The translations under genes and the position numbers were made by a program. Below the pieces are notes generated by a model, which was not told the origin of the DNA, did not search any database, and saw only the letters and a program-made list of their open reading frames with translations. Source: Vicinamibacteria bacterium (GTDB lineage Bacteria > Acidobacteriota > Vicinamibacteria > Fen-336). From it: a stretch of 35,633 bases of DNA. The stretch lies in contig DATMML010000080.1 of assembly GCA_035570235.1 (NCBI GenBank), forward strand, positions 1 through 35,633, given 5' to 3'. Positions 3,637-29,582 of this stretch are shown here, piece by piece; the first letter of the stretch is position 1, and each line of letters opens with the position of its first letter.

Positions 3637-3661
3637 GGAGCCTCCTTGTTGGACGAGATGA

Positions 3662-3687
3662 GCCGGGAGCCTTTGGCTCCTCCCGGC
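3662..3687. other. GC-rich inverted repeat in the divergent promoter region
   Basis: GCCGGGAG (3662-3669) pairs perfectly with CTCCCGGC (3680-3687), and CC/GG can extend the stem across a TTT loop. It lies between the amidohydrolase start and the selenoprotein start, ending 29 nt before the latter. It could be a leader hairpin or an operator; there is no T-tract on either strand, so a terminator is less likely. Confidence 0.5.
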
Positions 3688-3716
3688 CAACCCCGGACCA
3701 TGATAGGGTTCAGCTT

Positions 3717-4208
3717 ATGGAAATCCTACTCCTGCTGGTCGCGCTTGCTACCGCCGGCGAGAGGCCCCAAGTCGGCGACACGGCCCCCAACTTCAGCTTG
3801 CCCGGTCCGGGCGGGCAGGCGGTGTCTCTGGCCGCCTTCAAGGGCAAGACGATGGTGGTGCTCGCCTTCTTCCCTAAGGCCTTCACCGCCGGCTGAACGA
3901 AGGAAATGTCGGCGTATCGGGATCGTTATTCCGAGTTCGCCGGCACCGCCCAGGTACTGGGCGTCTCGATGGACAATCAGGAGACCCAAGTGAAGTTCTC
4001 GGAGTCCCTGAAGGCGCCATTTCCGCTCTTGGCCGACGCTGACGGCACCGTCTCGAAAGCCTACGGCGTTTGGAACGAGGGGGGGTACGCAAGCCGCGTC
4101 ACATTCGTGATTGACCGCGACGGGAAGGTGAAGGCCGTGTTTGAGGGGAAAGACGCCCTCGATCCCGCCGGTGCCCTCGGCGCCTGCGCCAAGCCCCATG
4201 CCCCTTAG
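3717..4208 (+). CDS. Selenocysteine-containing peroxiredoxin (AhpC/TSA-BCP type), TGA read as Sec60
   Basis: A 163-aa thiol-peroxidase-fold protein when TGA at 3894-3896 is decoded as selenocysteine. Residues 1-14 are a short hydrophobic leader, suggesting export. VGDTAPNFSLPGPGG (19-33) is the peroxiredoxin entry strand. VVLAFFPKAFTAG-U-TKEM (47-64) is the active-site loop, with Sec60 exactly where the peroxidatic Cys sits in the TxxC motif (Thr57). GVSMDNQETQVKF, FPLLADADGTVSKAYGV and the Arg127 region (SRVTFVIDRDG) follow in normal order. There is no Cys five residues after Sec; Cys157 near the C-terminus is the only possible resolving residue. The start is ATG 3717, with AGGG at 3705-3708. 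Without recoding, the gene splits into 59 codons plus an internal ATG ORF (3906-4208). A nonsense mutation of a Cys codon is the alternative, but homology continues unbroken and a SECIS-like hairpin follows. Expected role: peroxide reduction. Confidence 0.87.
3908..3944 (+). promoter_or_regulatory. Bacterial SECIS-like element downstream of the Sec UGA
   Basis: An in-frame stem-loop within the peroxiredoxin coding sequence. The lower stem GUCGGCG (3908-3914) pairs with CGCCGGC (3938-3944), 7 bp with one G-U. After a 2x3 internal loop (UA/GUU), the upper stem UCGGGA (3917-3922) pairs with UUCCGA (3929-3934), 6 bp. The 6-nt apical loop UCGUUA (3923-3928) contains the G and U expected for SelB recognition. 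The base starts 11 nt after the UGA and the apical loop 26 nt after it, inside the normal bacterial spacing. Pairing was found by eye. Confidence 0.75.
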
Positions 4209-4230
4209 GTAGCAGAGCCGGAGCCGGGCG

Positions 4231-4253
4231 GTCCGATTGGCTCCAAATCGGAC
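4231..4253 (+). terminator. Probable terminator hairpin after the selenoprotein gene
   Basis: GTCCGATT (4231-4238) and AATCGGAC (4246-4253) form a perfect 8-bp stem with a 7-nt loop, 22 nt after the stop codon. The following AATCTTGG is only weakly T-rich, so termination may be inefficient or Rho-assisted. The rest of the gap up to 4398 shows no gene. Confidence 0.5.
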
Positions 4254-4397
4254 AATCTTGGGTCCCGCCCCCGCAGCGACCCGACCGGGCGGTTCTCGCT
4301 GCCTTGGGAAAAGACCTTAGATGAGTGCCGGTGTGACGGTGCTCACTGAAGGAAGGGTGTACCGGCACCAGGATGAGCCGGGCCCGGCGGTCCAGAA

Positions 4398-21552: not shown

Positions 21553-23787
21553 GTGCGGAGACGATTGCGCGGGGTGCGCGCTCAACCGTGGATGACTGGC
21601 CTCCTCTTGGGCAGCTTCCTCTGCTGCCGTGCCGCCGCCGAAGGCGGATCGGACCCCGCGACCGCTCTCGAAAGAGCCATCTCCACGGCCGAGCAGAGTC
21701 TGCAGAAGGGTGACCTGCGGACCGCCGAGAGCCACTATCACTCCGCCCTATTCGAAGGCTGGCTGCTGATGGCAACGCTGGAGAGGATCGAGGGCCGGCT
21801 CCCGCAGGCGCGGGAGGCATTCCAGAGCGCTTCGACCTACGCCGTCGAGAACCGGGCCGCGCTCCAGGGCCTGGCCCTCGTACAGCTCCAAATGGGCGAG
21901 GCCGCCCCGGCCGCCGAGGTCTTGACGAGCCTGGCGAGGAAGAATCCCAAGGACGTCCAGACCCGCCGTCTGCTCGCGCAAGCGCTCGTGGCCCAAGGGC
22001 AGCCCGATCAGGCGGTGCGCGAGCTCGAGGAGGCGCGGGCAGCTGCTCCCAACGATCTCGAGCTGGCCTTTGCCGAGGCCGGCGCGTACCTGGGTCTCAA
22101 GAAGCCGGAGCTCGCGGCGCGCCTCTTCACGATGATTGTCGAGGCTAGGCCGCTCCCCCAAACCCACGTCCTCATCGGCCGAACCTACCGCGACTTCGGC
22201 GACTACCGGCGGGCCCGCGCCGCTCTACAGGCGGCCTTGAAGCAGGACCCGAGGGTGCATCGCGCCCACTACTACCTGGGCAACACGCTCGTGAGGGAGA
22301 AGGGGATGGCCGGGCTGGAAGAGGCCATACTCGAGTTCCAAGCGGAGTTGAAGCTTCAACCCCAGGATCCGCTAACAAACCTGGAGTTGGGGATGGCCCT
22401 CGTCGACACCCAGCGGTTCGAAGAAGCCCTGCCTCCCCTGGAGATCGCGGCCCGGTCCGACCCGCCGCAGGCGCGGACCCTCTACTACCTCGGCCGAGCC
22501 CAGCTCGGGGTGAACCTCCGGGCGGAGGCGGTTGGCTCCCTGAAGCGCGCGCTCGAGCTGGTGGAGCGGCAGGGGGCCGGAGGGGACCAGCTCCGGGTGA
22601 TCCATAACCAGCTGGGCCTGGCCCTCCAAAGGCTCGGCCAGGCGCAGGAAGCCGCTACCCATTTCGCGGAGTCCGAACGCCTATCGGCCCAGGGATCGGA
22701 CGCCGCGCGTGAGCAGCTGGCCCGCTACCAGTCGGACGTTCCCGAGCCGGAGGCGGCCCGGGACCCCGTCGCGCCGGTGATCGAGACCTCACCTCTGGCT
22801 GGGCTCCCGTCATTGGAGCGGGCAACGCTGAAGGGCCGCGTGAGGGCCGGGCTTGCCCGCTCGTACCTCAACCTGGGCGTGATGCAGGTGCAGGGCGAGC
22901 ACTTCGCTGAGGCCGCTGCCCTCTTCGAGAAGGCAGCCGCGATAGACCCCGCCTTCCCCCAGGTCCAGTACTCGCTGGGCGTGGCCTACTTCAACGCCGG
23001 CCAGTTCGACAAGGCCACCGCGCCTCTCGCCCGCGCCTTCTCGGTCAGCCCCAAGGACGCCGGCCTCAAGCGAATGCTGGCCATGGCCTGGCTGAACGCC
23101 GAAAAGTTCGACAAGGCCGCGGAGCTGCTGGGGGACGATCCGGAGCTCGCCACGAACCCCTCCCTGCAGTTTGCGTACGGTCTCGCCCTCTCCAGGAGCA
23201 ACCGCACGGCGGAGGCCGAGCGGACCTTCTCGCGCCTCTTCGCGCAGCACGGCGATTCCGCGGAGCTGAGCGTGCTGCTGGGCAAAGCCCACGCCCAGAT
23301 GGGGGACTTCGACTCCGCCATCGAGGCCCTAAAGCGGGCGCTCCGGCTCAAGGCCGATGTGGCGGAGGCGAACGGCAGCCTCGGCGTCATCTACTTGAAG
23401 CAGGGCCGGCTCGCGGAGGCCGAGCAGGCCCTCCGGGCGGAGTTGGCCCGAAACCCCGGGGACCTCCAGTCACAGCAGAATCTCGCGGTCGTGCTCGAAT
23501 CGCTCCAGCAGCCACAGGCGGCGATCTCGATCCTGCGCGGCGCTTTGAAGTCAAAGCAGGACTTTGCCGACGCGCGCTACCTGCTCGGCAAAATCCTGCT
23601 CGCGGAGGGAGCGGCCCCCGAGGCCGCGCAGCACCTGGAGGCTGCGGCCAAGGTCGCCCCCGAGGATGCGAAAATCCACTACCAGCTGGGACGGGCCTAC
23701 CAGACGCTGGGCCGGACCGGGCTCGCGGAACAGGAGTTCGAGATCTTCCGCCAGCTCAAGGACAAGCATCCCCCGAGCGCCCCCTAG
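21553..23787 (+). CDS. Exported TPR-repeat protein, paralog 1
   Basis: A 744-aa protein made almost wholly of tetratricopeptide repeats after a signal peptide (residues 1 to about 30; basic start then MTGLLLGSFLCCRAAA). Canonical repeats include AHYYLGNTLVREKGMAGLEEA, described in part: LRTAESHYHSALFEG, VQYSLGVAYFNAGQFDKA and LGVIYLKQGRLAEAEQAL. I chose the GTG at 21553 because the paralog at 25622 also starts with GTG and its N-terminus aligns residue for residue up to the GLLL core. The ATG at 21592 is an alternative but would leave a poor signal peptide. TPR proteins are protein-binding scaffolds; the partner here is probably the ASPIC/UnbV protein encoded convergently, 43 nt beyond the stop (inference). 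Confidence 0.88.
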   Translation: MRRRLRGVRAQPWMTGLLLGSFLCCRAAAEGGSDPATALERAISTAEQSLQKGDLRTAESHYHSALFEGWLLMATLERIEGRLPQAREAFQSASTYAVENRAALQGLALVQLQMGEAAPAAEVLTSLARKNPKDVQTRRLLAQALVAQGQPDQAVRELEEARAAAPNDLELAFAEAGAYLGLKKPELAARLFTMIVEARPLPQTHVLIGRTYRDFGDYRRARAALQAALKQDPRVHRAHYYLGNTLVREKGMAGLEEAILEFQAELKLQPQDPLTNLELGMALVDTQRFEEALPPLEIAARSDPPQARTLYYLGRAQLGVNLRAEAVGSLKRALELVERQGAGGDQLRVIHNQLGLALQRLGQAQEAATHFAESERLSAQGSDAAREQLARYQSDVPEPEAARDPVAPVIETSPLAGLPSLERATLKGRVRAGLARSYLNLGVMQVQGEHFAEAAALFEKAAAIDPAFPQVQYSLGVAYFNAGQFDKATAPLARAFSVSPKDAGLKRMLAMAWLNAEKFDKAAELLGDDPELATNPSLQFAYGLALSRSNRTAEAERTFSRLFAQHGDSAELSVLLGKAHAQMGDFDSAIEALKRALRLKADVAEANGSLGVIYLKQGRLAEAEQALRAELARNPGDLQSQQNLAVVLESLQQPQAAISILRGALKSKQDFADARYLLGKILLAEGAAPEAAQHLEAAAKVAPEDAKIHYQLGRAYQTLGRTGLAEQEFEIFRQLKDKHPPSAP

Positions 23788-23830
23788 AGGCCGCTCAGGA
23801 AGGCTGACCCCCGGGGCCGGTGGGGAGCGC

Positions 23831-25501
23831 CTACTCGGGCTCGCGCACCGACAGGATCTGGTCGGCCGGCACTTGCTTCAGGGTCTGCACCCTCCCTGAG
23901 GGCCACGTGATGGTCAGCTCGGAGACCACGCGGTCCGGGCCCAGCCCGAAGTGAACACGGCGGTCGGACGCGCCGCCGTACCCCACCGCCGTGTTGACGT
24001 GGTTGTACTGGGCGCCGGACGCGGTGACGACCTTGATCTTCGCGCCCATGCCCTCGCGGTTGCTCTTGGTGCCCACGGTCTTGATGAGCAGCCAGTGGTT
24101 TGGCGTGGGGGAGACGTTGTGCCACAGCTCGAGCGCGCCGTCGAGGGAGGTGACGACGACGTCGATGCGGCCGTCGTTGTCGATGTCGCCGAAGGCCGCA
24201 CCCCGGTGGACCGCTTTGCGCGCGAACTGCTCGCCCGCATCGGCGCTCCCGTCCGCGAAGCGACCATCCTTGAGGTTGACGAAGACGGCGTTGGCCATGG
24301 GCACGCGCTCGCGGAAGTTCCCGCCGGGGTCCATGACATCGGCGCAGGCCACGAACAGGTCCTTCCAGCCGTCGTTGTTGAGGTCCACGATGCCAGCGCC
24401 CCACCCGGAACGCGCGCGCGACAGGGTGGCGATTCCGGAGCGGGCGGTGACCTCCTCGAAGAGCCCCCCCCCAAGGTTCTTGAAGAGAGGGAAGGTCTCG
24501 TTCGCGAGTGCGGTCTGAAAGATGTCGGGCCGGCCGTCGTTGTCGACGTCACGGGCGTCTGCGCCCATGCCCGCGACGGGCTCCGCGCGTTCGGTCAAGG
24601 CCACCCCCCGTTCGAAGGCGGACTCCGTGAAGGTGCCGTTGCGGTTGTTCATGAACAGGAAGGAGGGCAGGGTATCGTTGGCGACGAATAAGTCCATCCA
24701 ACCGTCGTCGTCGAAGTCGGCGACGCCGATGCCCATCCCCTTCCCGATGTGGGCGCGGATGCCGGAGGGGACCGAGACATCGGTGAAGGTCCCGTTGCGG
24801 TTGTTGTGGAAGAGCGAGTTCGGAAGGCCCTGATATTGCTTCGGGTGGCAGTAGTCGGGTGATTCGGGCTTGCCGCACAGAGGCTCGTGGGCCGGGTCCC
24901 AGACGCAGTAGTTAGAGACGAAGAGGTCCAGCCAGCCGTCGTGGTCGTAGTCCACGAAAGCGGCGGCGACCGCCCAGAGCCGGCCGTATTTGGGGTCGGG
25001 TTGGGCCAGGCCCGCCGCCTCGGTGACATCCGTGAACGTCCCGTTTCCGTTGTTGTGGAAGAGGGTGTTCCTCCGCAAGCCGGCCACGAAGATGTCGGTG
25101 TAGCCGTCGTTGTCGTAGTCTCCGGTGGCCACCCCCAGGTCGTAGCCCCGGCCCGCCACCCCCGCGGCCTCGGTAACGTCGGTAAATGTGCCGTCGCCGT
25201 TGTTCCGGTAGAGACGGTTCCACTGCTCCGGGCCCGTCTTCTCCAGGCTGGTCATGTTCGCGCCGTTGACCACGTAGATGTCGAGCCAACCGTCGTTGTT
25301 GTAGTCGAGGAGAGCGACCCCGGAGACCATCGTCTCCGGCTGGTGCTTGCGCTGCGTCCGGCCCGAGTTGGTGACGAAGCGCACGCCGCGCTTGGCCGCG
25401 ACCTCATCGAAGACGATGGGATCGAACTTCAGGGGGGGAGCAGCCCAGGCCGCGACTCCGACCAGGAGAGCGACCAGAAGGATTCGAGTGGCGGACCGCA
25501 C
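23831..25501 (-). CDS. ASPIC/UnbV (CRTAC1-type) FG-GAP beta-propeller protein, paralog 1
   Basis: A 556-aa exported protein. After a signal peptide (RILLVALLVGVAAWA) come seven calcium-binding VCBS/FG-GAP loops, each of the DxDxDGxxD type: DYNNDGWLD, DYDNDGYTD, DYDHDGWLD, DFDDDGWMD, DVDNDGRPD, DLNNDGWKD and DIDNDGRID. This fits a seven-bladed propeller. The C-terminal 80 residues form the ASPIC/UnbV domain (GMGAKIKVVTASG, RRVHFGLGPD, LTITWPSGR). The start is a GTG at 25499-25501. It is supported by the promoter 8 nt upstream and because it makes the protein one residue shorter than its paralog at 27909. The frame stays open much further upstream, but that part is antisense to the second TPR gene. 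Confidence 0.88.
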   Translation of the reverse strand: MRSATRILLVALLVGVAAWAAPPLKFDPIVFDEVAAKRGVRFVTNSGRTQRKHQPETMVSGVALLDYNNDGWLDIYVVNGANMTSLEKTGPEQWNRLYRNNGDGTFTDVTEAAGVAGRGYDLGVATGDYDNDGYTDIFVAGLRRNTLFHNNGNGTFTDVTEAAGLAQPDPKYGRLWAVAAAFVDYDHDGWLDLFVSNYCVWDPAHEPLCGKPESPDYCHPKQYQGLPNSLFHNNRNGTFTDVSVPSGIRAHIGKGMGIGVADFDDDGWMDLFVANDTLPSFLFMNNRNGTFTESAFERGVALTERAEPVAGMGADARDVDNDGRPDIFQTALANETFPLFKNLGGGLFEEVTARSGIATLSRARSGWGAGIVDLNNDGWKDLFVACADVMDPGGNFRERVPMANAVFVNLKDGRFADGSADAGEQFARKAVHRGAAFGDIDNDGRIDVVVTSLDGALELWHNVSPTPNHWLLIKTVGTKSNREGMGAKIKVVTASGAQYNHVNTAVGYGGASDRRVHFGLGPDRVVSELTITWPSGRVQTLKQVPADQILSVREPE

Positions 25502-25621: not shown

Positions 25622-27835
25622 GTGTCCGGAAGTTGTCGCGGGCCTCACACTCGCCGCCTCCTGGCGGGCCTCCTCCTGAGCGGCCTCTTCGCTTCGGAGG
25701 CGGTGGCCCAGACGGGATCGGACCCAGCCACGGCTCTCGAGTCGGCCATAGCCTCCGCCGAAGAGAGCCTGCGGCAGAGCGACCTTTCCTCCGCGGAGAG
25801 ACACTACCGCGAGGCCCTGTTCGAGGGCTGGTTGTTGACGGGCGAGCTGGAGAGGGTCGAGAGGCGGTCCGGGGTGGCGCGGGAGGCGGTGCGCAACGCC
25901 TCGCTCTTCACGGTCGAGACCCCTCCCGCGCTCCGCTTGCTGGCCACCGCCCACCTCCAGTTGGGGGAGACCGCGCCGGCCGTGCAGATCTTGAGCGAAC
26001 TCGCGGGGAAAGGCACGACGGACGCGGCGACCCTCCGCCTCCTCGCCAAGGCCCTTGCCGCCGACGGGCAGCCCGAGCGAGCCGTGCAGAAGCTGGACGA
26101 GGCCAGTTCGGCGGCCACCGACGACCCGGAAGAGGCATTCCTGCTCGCCACCGAGTACCTGTGGTTGAAGAGAGTGGATGCCGCCGCGCTCCTGTTCGCG
26201 CGCGTCGTCCAGGCGCGGCCGATTCCGCAGACCCGCGTTCTCGTGGGCCGCGCTTACCGCGACGCCGGCGAGTACGAACGCGCGCGATCTGAGCTGCGGG
26301 CGGCCCTCGACCAGGACCCGAGCGTGCATCGCGCCCACTACTACCTGGGCATGGTGATGTTGGCGGATGCGGGAGCCGGGCCCGATCGGCTGGAGAGGGC
26401 AGTAGGTGAGTTTCGAAAGGAGCTCAAGAACAACCCGCACGATGCGCTCACCAACGATCAGCTGGGCACCGCGCTGCTGGAGGCAGGGCGGCCGGCGGAG
26501 GCATTGTCGGCCTTGGAGGCCGCAGTCGGAGAGGAGGCGCGCTCTGCTTTTGTCTACCACCTCGGGCGTTGCCAGCTCGCCCTCGAGCGGCCGGGGGACG
26601 CGTTGTCCTCGTCTCGGCGTGCCTTGGACCTCGCCCGGGAGCAGGGGGCCGGCGAGGCCGAAGTGGCGCAAATTCATTACCAGCTTGGCTTGGCGCTCAG
26701 AAAGCTAGGGTCGGCGCAGGAGGCGGTCGCCCAACTGGCCGAGGCCCGGCGCATGACCAACCAGGGGACAGATGCCTCGGGGGAGGCTGCGGCCAGGGGC
26801 TCGTTTGCCGCCGCCCTTGACTCCCAGAACGAGACCTCCTCCCTCTCCGCGCTGTCCCCCGGACAACGGGCGGCGCTGAGGACGCGGGTGAGGCTGAGCC
26901 TGGCGCGCGCCTATTTCAACCTGGGCGTTCTGCAGGCCCAGGGCCAGCGCTTCGCACCCGCGGCGGAGTTCTTCCGGAGGGCGGCGGAGGCCGAACCCGA
27001 CTTCCCCCAGGTCCAGTCCTCCCTCGGTGTGGCCTACTTCAACGCTCGGCAATTCGACAAGGCCACCGAACCCCTGACCCGCGCCGTGGCCACCAGCCCG
27101 GAGAACCCGGGCTTGAAGCGCATGCTGGCGATGTCCTGGCTCAACACCGAGGCCTGGGCCAAGGCGGCGGCCCTGCTGCAAGACGACCCGGAGCGCAGAA
27201 CGGACGGATCCTTGCAGTTTGCCTACGGCCTCGCCCTGCTGCTCAGCGGCCGCGCAGCCGAGGCGGAGACGGTCTTGGCCATGCTTCTCAAGGAGCAAGG
27301 CGATTCGCCCGAGCTCAGCGTGCTACTGGGCCAAGCGCAGGCGGACCAGAGGAAGTACGACGAGGCCGCTCGGGCGCTCGAGCGAGCGGTCCGGCTCAAG
27401 GCGGAGGTGGCGGGGGGCCGCGCAACCCTGGGCCTTGTCTATTGGAAGCAGAAGCGCCTGGCGGACGCCGAGGCCACCCTGCGCACGGAGCTCATGGCGC
27501 ATCCCACCGACCTGCAGTCGCAGCAGAACCTCGCGCTCGTCCTCGACGCACAGAATCGGCGGGAGGAGGCGATCGTTCTCTTGCGCGACGCCCTCCAAAC
27601 GAAGCCGGACTTCGCCGATGCTCACTACTTGCTGGGTAGGATCCTGCGCACCCAGGGCACCCTCGGGGAAGCGGTGGAACACCTGGAAGCGGCCGCGCGC
27701 CTGGACCCAGGGGACGCCGGCATTCACGATGAGCTGGGGCGGGCCTACCAGGCTCAGGGCCGCAGGGAGCAGGCCCGGCAGGAGTTTGGGGCTTCCCAGA
27801 AGCTCAAGGCCAAGAGGGGAGGAGACAGCCCGTGA
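25622..27835 (+). CDS. Exported TPR-repeat protein, paralog 2
   Basis: A 737-aa protein, collinear with the TPR protein at 21553 from the signal peptide (RRLLAGLLLSGLFASEAVAQ) to the last repeat. Both begin the mature part with GSDPATALE and share long near-identical stretches, for example VHRAHYYLG, FPQVQ, GVAYFNA, QFDKAT and PTDLQSQQNLALVL/GDLQSQQNLAVVL. The DNA encoding VHRAHYYLG is nearly identical in both. It is mostly TPR repeats and expected to act in the periplasm or at the outer membrane as a scaffold. The ASPIC/UnbV gene follows 73 nt downstream on the same strand, so this pair is probably one operon, unlike the convergent first pair. Confidence 0.88.
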   Translation: MSGSCRGPHTRRLLAGLLLSGLFASEAVAQTGSDPATALESAIASAEESLRQSDLSSAERHYREALFEGWLLTGELERVERRSGVAREAVRNASLFTVETPPALRLLATAHLQLGETAPAVQILSELAGKGTTDAATLRLLAKALAADGQPERAVQKLDEASSAATDDPEEAFLLATEYLWLKRVDAAALLFARVVQARPIPQTRVLVGRAYRDAGEYERARSELRAALDQDPSVHRAHYYLGMVMLADAGAGPDRLERAVGEFRKELKNNPHDALTNDQLGTALLEAGRPAEALSALEAAVGEEARSAFVYHLGRCQLALERPGDALSSSRRALDLAREQGAGEAEVAQIHYQLGLALRKLGSAQEAVAQLAEARRMTNQGTDASGEAAARGSFAAALDSQNETSSLSALSPGQRAALRTRVRLSLARAYFNLGVLQAQGQRFAPAAEFFRRAAEAEPDFPQVQSSLGVAYFNARQFDKATEPLTRAVATSPENPGLKRMLAMSWLNTEAWAKAAALLQDDPERRTDGSLQFAYGLALLLSGRAAEAETVLAMLLKEQGDSPELSVLLGQAQADQRKYDEAARALERAVRLKAEVAGGRATLGLVYWKQKRLADAEATLRTELMAHPTDLQSQQNLALVLDAQNRREEAIVLLRDALQTKPDFADAHYLLGRILRTQGTLGEAVEHLEAAARLDPGDAGIHDELGRAYQAQGRREQARQEFGASQKLKAKRGGDSP

Positions 27836-27908
27836 ACCGCTCGTCCAGCGATGCGGCCGCACTGTACGCAGGTATCGCGACCCCGATGTCAAGCCCGGTG
27901 AGGCATCC

Positions 27909-29582
27909 GTGAAGCTCACCCTGGGTCTGGTTCTCTTATGGCTCCTCGCGGCTTCGGGCTTGGCGCAGCTCGCGAGCCCCACGCCGAAGCCGCTTTTCCG
28001 CGACATCGCGCGCGAGGCAGGAATCACCTTCCAACACCACGCCGCACCGGAGAAGAAATTCATCGTGGAGTCCATGAGCGGCGGGGTCGCCCTGCTCGAC
28101 TTCGACAACGACGGGCTCCTCGATATCTACTTAACCGACTCCCTGACCGTGGACACGGCCAAGAACCCGAGAGCGGCTCGCAGCGCGCTCTACCGGAACC
28201 TGGGCAACGGGAAGTTCGAAGACGTGACGGAAAAGGCCGGGGTGGGGCACCCGGGCTGGGCGATGGGGGTGTGCACGGCGGATGTGGACGGAGACGGCTG
28301 GCCGGACATCTACGTCACTGGCCTAGGCCGGAACTATCTCTATCACAACAACCACGACGGCACCTTCACCGACATCGCGGAACAAGCGGGGGTCGCGGGG
28401 GGCGGCTGGTCCGCGGGTTGCGGCTTCGCCGACTACGACCGGGACGGCAACCTCGACCTCTTCGTCAGCCGCTACGTGAAGATCGACCTCGACGACCTGC
28501 CCGCCTTCGGCAGCGGCAAGACCTGCCAATATCGCGGCATCGCGGTGCAGTGTGGGCCCCGGGGTCTCCCCGGAGAGTCGGACCTCCTTTTCCACAACGA
28601 CGGCAACGGGCACTTCACCGAGGTCAGCGAGAAGGCCGGGGTCTCCGATCCGCGCCACTATTTCGGGCTGGGGGTCGCTTGGTTCGACTACAACGGCGAC
28701 GGCTGGCCGGACCTGTACGTGGCCAACGACTCCGGGCCGAGCTATCTCTACGAGAACCAGAAGGACGGGACGTTCAAAGAGGTCGCCTTCCCCATGGGGG
28801 TGGCGGTGAGCGAGGACGGGGGCGAGCAGGGGGGGATGGGCGTGGCCGTGGGTGACTACGACAACAGCGGTCGGTTCAGCATCTACAAGACGAACTTCGT
28901 GGAGGAGTACAACAGCCTCTTCCACAACGAGGGCGACCACTTCGCCGACGTCTCCTTCCGCTCGAAGACCGCCCCCAGCAGCCTGCCCTACGTCAAGTGG
29001 GGCACGGCCTTCTTCGATTACGACAACGACGGGTTCCTGGACATCATCTCCGTCAACGGCCACGTCTACCCCCAGATTGGCCTGTCTCGTCTGGGCCCCT
29101 CCGCGGGCTACCGGCAGCGGAAGCTGCTCTATCACAACCGCGGGGACGGAACATTCGACGAGGTCGCGGAGCAGTTCGGGGCTGCGCTCACGGAGCCGAG
29201 GGTGAGCCGCGGTCTGGCCGTGGGCGACCTCGACAACGACGGGCGGCTGGACGTCGTCGTCAACGACCTCGACGGCAACGCCCAGGTGCTGCACAACGAG
29301 CTGGCCGACGTCGGCAACTGGCTCCGCGTGAAGCTCAAGGGCAAGGGTCGGATGACCGACGCCATCGGGGCCGTGGTCACCGTGAAGGCAGGCAGGCTCC
29401 GTCTGACGCGCCTCGTCCAGAGCGGGACCGGTTATCTCTCCCAGGACGACATGCGGTCGCATTTCGGCCTCGCCCACGAGCCGCAGGCGGACTCGATCGA
29501 GGTCCGGTGGCCGGACGGAACCATCACCCGGCGGGAGAGGGTGAAGGCGAACCAACAGGTGGAGATCGAGCAGCCTCGGTGA
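27909..29582 (+). CDS. ASPIC/UnbV (CRTAC1-type) FG-GAP beta-propeller protein, paralog 2
   Basis: A 557-aa exported protein with a signal peptide (LTLGLVLLWLLAASGLAQ) and seven propeller calcium loops: DFDNDGLLD, DVDGDGWPD, DYDRDGNLD, DYNGDGWPD, DYDNSGRFS, DYDNDGFLD and DLDNDGRLD. The fifth loop (DYDNSGRFS) has lost the Gly-preceding Asp and the final Asp, so that blade probably does not bind calcium. The ASPIC/UnbV domain (AIGAVVTVKAGRL, RSHFGLAHE, IEVRWPDGT) closes the protein. The GTG at 27909 has GTGAGG just upstream. The open frame further upstream overlaps the TPR gene and is not part of the protein. It is most likely cotranscribed with TPR paralog 2. Confidence 0.88.
   Translation: MKLTLGLVLLWLLAASGLAQLASPTPKPLFRDIAREAGITFQHHAAPEKKFIVESMSGGVALLDFDNDGLLDIYLTDSLTVDTAKNPRAARSALYRNLGNGKFEDVTEKAGVGHPGWAMGVCTADVDGDGWPDIYVTGLGRNYLYHNNHDGTFTDIAEQAGVAGGGWSAGCGFADYDRDGNLDLFVSRYVKIDLDDLPAFGSGKTCQYRGIAVQCGPRGLPGESDLLFHNDGNGHFTEVSEKAGVSDPRHYFGLGVAWFDYNGDGWPDLYVANDSGPSYLYENQKDGTFKEVAFPMGVAVSEDGGEQGGMGVAVGDYDNSGRFSIYKTNFVEEYNSLFHNEGDHFADVSFRSKTAPSSLPYVKWGTAFFDYDNDGFLDIISVNGHVYPQIGLSRLGPSAGYRQRKLLYHNRGDGTFDEVAEQFGAALTEPRVSRGLAVGDLDNDGRLDVVVNDLDGNAQVLHNELADVGNWLRVKLKGKGRMTDAIGAVVTVKAGRLRLTRLVQSGTGYLSQDDMRSHFGLAHEPQADSIEVRWPDGTITRRERVKANQQVEIEQPR

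Follow-up and report, generated by a model that had tools for sequence, protein, structure and literature searches.

A likely SECIS hairpin after the in-frame UGA of a Vicinamibacteria peroxiredoxin gene, kept among relatives as a shape at its place and not as base pairs

The window analysed here is a stretch of 35,633 nucleotides, the contig labelled G000:C80 in the genome of a Vicinamibacteria bacterium (G000; assembly of 5.72 Mb in 138 contigs). It contains a peroxiredoxin gene (3717-4208, +) with an in-frame UGA that is followed closely by a strong RNA hairpin at 3907-3945. This hairpin is very probably the SECIS element that lets the UGA be read as selenocysteine (Sec). Judging by excerpts of the relevant papers, both Sec-containing peroxiredoxins and SECIS elements of bacteria have been known for a long time (PMC13188914, PMC1794560, PMC12013277, PMC5029168, PMC9312934, PMC10778597). 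The gene and its hairpin are very probably a fresh example of that known system, with the twist that the hairpin of the relatives is built from different pairs.

With the UGA read through, the gene encodes a protein of 163 residues with a short, hydrophobic N-terminus and an AhpC/TSA domain (Pfam PF00578, E 1.1e-37). The PF00578 match found at this gene when its own genome was searched spans one TGA. In an alignment with a peroxiredoxin of solved structure, the UGA (3894-3896, +) falls on the peroxidatic Cys, and the motif around the UGA, PKAFTAGU (P-KAF-T-AG-U), fits the peroxidatic motif PxxxTxxU (PxxxTxxC) as printed in excerpts of PMC13188914. The protein therefore combines the AhpC/TSA domain with a UGA at the PxxxTxxC site, which is what marks a Sec-containing peroxiredoxin (PF00578, TxxU). 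It shares the AhpC/TSA fold with Sec at TxxU with PrxU of Eubacterium acidaminophilum and the PrxU equivalog NF040737, as these are described in excerpts. However, it is not a member of that equivalog, scoring 67.4 bits against a curated cut-off of 270. In our judgement it is practically certain that the UGA encodes Sec at the peroxidatic position. Sec60 would then reduce peroxides and would probably be resolved by Cys157 (codon 4185-4187, +), a candidate for the resolving partner in a Sec/Cys pair. A Cys lies 97-98 residues past the U/C position, near the C-terminus, in all eight proteins of the clade to which the window protein belongs.

This clade, group A (support 99/93 in the tree), came from a homolog search of 198 genomes that gave a match in 197. 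Seven of its eight genes have UGA at the same site (L018, which is the window gene, to L023, and L025), and L024 has TGC. Codon changes 3' of the UGA in three ortholog pairs are mostly synonymous (synonymous:nonsynonymous 14:9, 7:1, and 32:15). SelA is over its cut-off in all seven genomes with group A UGA genes, and was not found in G016, the holder of the Cys gene L024, in an assembly only 75% complete. Since L024 nests inside the Sec clade beside L023 and L025, a change from Sec to Cys is the simplest reading, and a conversion accompanied by loss of excess RNA structure (see below) is likely. Other groups of Sec-peroxiredoxins among the loci taken are B (12), C (5), D (26), and E (2). A scan of genome contigs added 10 distant loci, none of them in group A. 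Distant loci L048, L049, L051, and L052 stand outside the tree and the Cys control, and L053-L057 outside the analysis. Motif patterns missed 14, then 10, of 28 new loci, which were then read from their match coordinates. Two Sec-peroxiredoxin matches, L037 and L082, also have a TAG inside the match, at or near its end, that may be a true stop.

The genome of the window has the full set of a Sec-decoding organism: selA, selB, selD, and tRNA-Sec. SelB (341.9 bits, residues 2-578 of 581), SelA (524 bits), and tRNA-Sec (71.4 bits; ARAGORN tRNA-SeC tca) are all over their cut-offs, and SelD (L074, G000:C103; 352.8 bits) has one in-frame TGA itself. At least six genes in the genome have an in-frame TGA, namely the window gene and five others. 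One TGA is present in 5 of the 16 PF00578 matches (the window gene, L061, L065, L070, and L073). L061 (G000:C51) and L065 (G000:C10) are two further peroxiredoxins. L070 (G000:C103) is thioredoxin/TlpA-like; its TGA lies in FGUINC, and its hairpin has a GGU loop. L073 (G000:C94) is deiodinase-like (PF00837; NF038285 below cut-off), and its TGA at SCTUPPF is soon followed by a perfect 7-bp hairpin with the loop GGU. Inspection by eye gave hairpins with GGU, GUU, or GUC loops in these four genes and in selD. The model search described below also ranked four of the five first; in L065 it favoured a different loop.

The RNA from 3894 to 3950 folds into a single two-stem hairpin with a minimum free energy (MFE) of -23.7 kcal/mol (z -2.83; 3 of 200 dinucleotide shuffles are as stable). 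From 3907 to 3945 the fold reads UGUCGGCG-UA-UCGGGAU-CGUU-AUUCCGA-GUU-CGCCGGCA. A lower stem of 8 bp joins 3907-3914 to 3938-3945, and an upper stem of 7 bp, one of them G-U, joins 3917-3923 to 3928-3934 (all +). When five longer stretches (up to 3660-4300) are folded, the MFE structure retains all 15 pairs, most with a pair probability of about 0.9 or above and the two end pairs with 0.68-0.78. An initial annotation had placed a SECIS-like hairpin here and proposed folding 3894-3950 as a check. The hairpin is indeed the minimum-energy fold, alone and in the longer contexts, and its asymmetric internal loop with U residues (UA/GUU) is as described. The stems had been given as 7 and 6 bp. These pairs are correct, but each stem was one end pair short (U3907-A3945 and U3923-A3928). 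Because U3923 pairs with A3928, the apical loop is not the six-nucleotide UCGUUA of the annotation but the four-nucleotide CGUU (3924-3927, +), 27 nt past the UGA.

The shorter loop matters for the rule behind the SECIS search (bSECIS), which asks for a loop of 3-9 nt with G within the first two positions, an upper stem of 4-16 bp, a spacing of 16-37 nt, and an MFE of -7.5 kcal/mol or lower. The position of the G fails for UCGUUA and holds for the predicted CGUU. With that loop, 7 bp, a spacing of 27 nt, and -21.6 kcal/mol, the window hairpin agrees with the model, and it has the stem-loop directly 3' of an in-frame Sec UGA that belongs to a bacterial SECIS. Its spacing is within the range of its own genome, since the loops of the other five TGA genes lie at 17 to 33 nt. 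In its first form the model search cut any internal loop longer than 4 nt, and the lower stem of the window hairpin escaped it for that reason; the later counts come from a widened form. No Rfam covariance model matches the hairpin. In E. coli fdhF the SECIS is a stem with a G/U-bearing apical loop, its base about 10 nt beyond the UGA. The window hairpin resembles it in having such a stem and loop, but its apical loop is further from the UGA. It resembles the bSECIS consensus (behind bSECISearch; excerpts of PMC13188914) as a stem-loop right after the UGA inside the reading frame. It differs from that consensus in its loop, CGUU and not GGU-type, and in its long two-stem form, and most group A orthologs have not retained a G[G/U] loop.

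Agreement with the published rule is weak evidence, because 73% of 2000 coding positions sampled from neighbouring genes pass it, and 56% pass with the stricter G[G/U] loop. The G/U-bearing loop at SECIS distance to which the annotation pointed is present, but therefore says little by itself. The window's -21.6 kcal/mol is reached by 2.1% of the 2000 positions under the SECIS rule and by 1.1% with the G[G/U] loop.

Are the same pairs found in the relatives? Near-identical rows were dropped before pairs were counted and profiles made, leaving 6 of 7 sequences in group A, 11 of 12 in B, and 14 distinct of 26 in D. In the six distinct group A Sec genes, 68.8% of cells pair in the window's lower helix and 31% in its upper helix. 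RNAalifold gave no supported common fold for the seven Sec orthologs. Its fold is a different one with an unfavourable covariation term (+1.12), and the idea of one consensus structure for all seven was rejected. Folded singly, L020, L023, and L025 share the window's lower helix and have the upper helix in another register; for L025 no hairpin fits the bSECIS model. The register shared by these three was also set aside: 75.8% of its cells pair, but with so few sequences 109 of 500 shuffles reach that figure. L019, L021, and L022 belong to one genus and can adopt a different long hairpin, with a single C-G/G-C swap; over 57 nt, the MFE fold of L019 and L021 is different again. In its exact form the upper helix occurs only in the window gene, and group A offers no convincing covariation. 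Conservation of pairs through compensatory changes, a supporting but not a defining feature of a bacterial SECIS, is thus absent, and shape and position are kept instead. The annotation had named two outcomes that would count against it, a hairpin other than the minimum-energy fold and pairs that are not conserved in Sec-containing relatives. The second is what was found.

The Sec-peroxiredoxin genes of groups B and D, homologs from other genomes in the class and the phylum, also have their hairpins in the 40-nt stretch that follows the UGA. They differ from the window hairpin in their loops (GGUACC in B; GGC or GUC in D), in lying nearer the UGA (spacings of 17 and 23), and in covariation. 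In group B, 98.7% of cells pair and C-G/U-A double changes occur in 4 of 11 sequences. In group D, 92.9% pair and 13 cells have double changes, a result equalled by 0 of 500 shuffles. As covariation is seen in B and D, where the register is kept, the failure to see it in group A is informative, even if that group has few members. These two families of SECIS-like hairpins (L026-L038 and L080-L106) are usable as covariance models. A group D model run against 18 loci returned 13 matches, of which the sole strong one was its own member L102; none was in L018, and none of the weaker matches directly followed its gene's UGA.

The hairpin at 3907-3945 has one main rival. What if the UGA encodes Sec, but the working SECIS is a weaker hairpin at 3909-3934, with the loop GGAU 23 nt past the UGA in the group D register? 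The first form of the model search returned this hairpin. Members of group D have the identical 5' arm, GCGUAUC, with their GG loop in the identical place, and the hairpin of these phylum-wide genes shows covariation. Nevertheless, it is a weak rival. It reaches only -6.6 kcal/mol, its pair probability is about zero with none of its nine pairs in any MFE fold, and the group D covariance model has no match in L018 at E values up to 10. We consider it improbable.

Still less probable is that the UGA encodes Sec and the hairpin at 3907-3945 is a by-product of GC-rich codons that SelB needs little or not at all. This reading can draw on the lack of conserved pairing and on the fact that raw stability is not rare. 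In this GC-rich genome, 1628 of the 9741 codon-start 57-mers in other window genes (17%) fold as stably. What argues against it is the behaviour of synonymous recodings. Only 10 of 5000 recodings of the window peptide reach -23.7 kcal/mol, and 1 of 6000 recodings of the window gene has as stable a SECIS-model hairpin. In other words, the hairpin is more structure than the peptide demands. The same comparison gave p values of 0.003, 0.036, 0.062, 0.050, 0.045, 0.022, and 0.034 for the seven group A Sec genes, and 0.205 for the Cys ortholog L024. The excess is not significant for every Sec gene (e.g., p 0.48 for L026 and 0.61 for L070), and single-gene values for groups B and C and for the other genes of the window's genome are often not significant.

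The place of the excess also speaks against a by-product. In 42-nt segments of the six distinct group A Sec orthologs, it peaks at +4 codons after the UGA (mean z -2.59, the lowest of 60 offsets). There all six genes have z values of -1.7 to -3.7, whereas the single Cys ortholog has +0.9. The strongest dip thus occurs only after the UGA and is absent where the codon is Cys, albeit in one gene. A second run gave mean z values at +4 codons of -2.75 for A, -1.81 for B, -1.11 for C, -1.24 for D, -3.15 for E (two genes), and -0.69 for seven Cys genes; in the other Sec-peroxiredoxin groups, too, a dip falls between 0 and +4 codons. The hairpin is therefore kept as a shape at its place, not as base pairs. 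The annotation had called it independent support for recoding. The synonymous-recoding, positional, and Sec-versus-Cys comparisons bear this out and the rule on loop and distance adds little, but the case for recoding over a nonsense mutation, which stands, rests above all on the Sec machinery and on the UGA common to the orthologs. That the UGA is a true stop (a nonsense mutation, a sequencing error, or a pseudogene) is hardly conceivable: the frame is broken under the standard code, but the same UGA occurs in seven orthologs of two families, substitutions 3' of it are mostly synonymous, and the genome has complete Sec machinery.

If the hairpin at 3907-3945 is the SECIS, SelB with Sec-tRNA(Sec) would bind its apical part while the UGA is in the ribosomal A site, and would deliver Sec before a release factor acts. 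The G and U of the loop have their presumed role from the published model, and we lean slightly towards CGUU being the SelB contact itself, again as a matter of judgement. Some bacterial SECIS elements deviate from the consensus, according to excerpts of two reviews (PMC13188914, PMC12013277). Perhaps the group A elements are a non-canonical, drifting class in which a strong hairpin 13-52 nt past the UGA is under selection but its base pairs, its register, and its loop are free to change from genus to genus. Only in two of the seven Sec orthologs (L018 and L020) does a hairpin with a G[G/U] loop beat synonymous shuffles; in the other five, none stands out from synonymous recodings. We hold this idea tentatively and think it rather unlikely. 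If it were true, SelB would read shape and position over loop sequence, or would have changed its loop preference.

The window gene adds one clean selenoprotein with its probable SECIS, from a genome where six or more genes have an in-frame TGA. Group A is of wider use as a natural experiment: the hairpins after the shared UGA differ, one gene has probably converted from Sec to Cys, and the elements of the sister groups are well supported. This makes the question of whether SelB reads loop sequence or shape directly testable. No description of the clade was found in titles and abstract openings of the literature on SECIS elements, Acidobacteriota selenoproteins, and Sec peroxiredoxins.

Two minor features of the window deserve mention. 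An antisense open frame of 157 codons (3726-4199, -) overlaps the peroxiredoxin gene and is probably a shadow of GC-rich codons. Further along, 21553-25500 and 25622-29582 each encode an adjoining pair of proteins, presumably a tetratricopeptide-like protein and an FG-GAP/VCBS-like repeat protein, and judged from the translations the two pairs resemble a tandem duplication.
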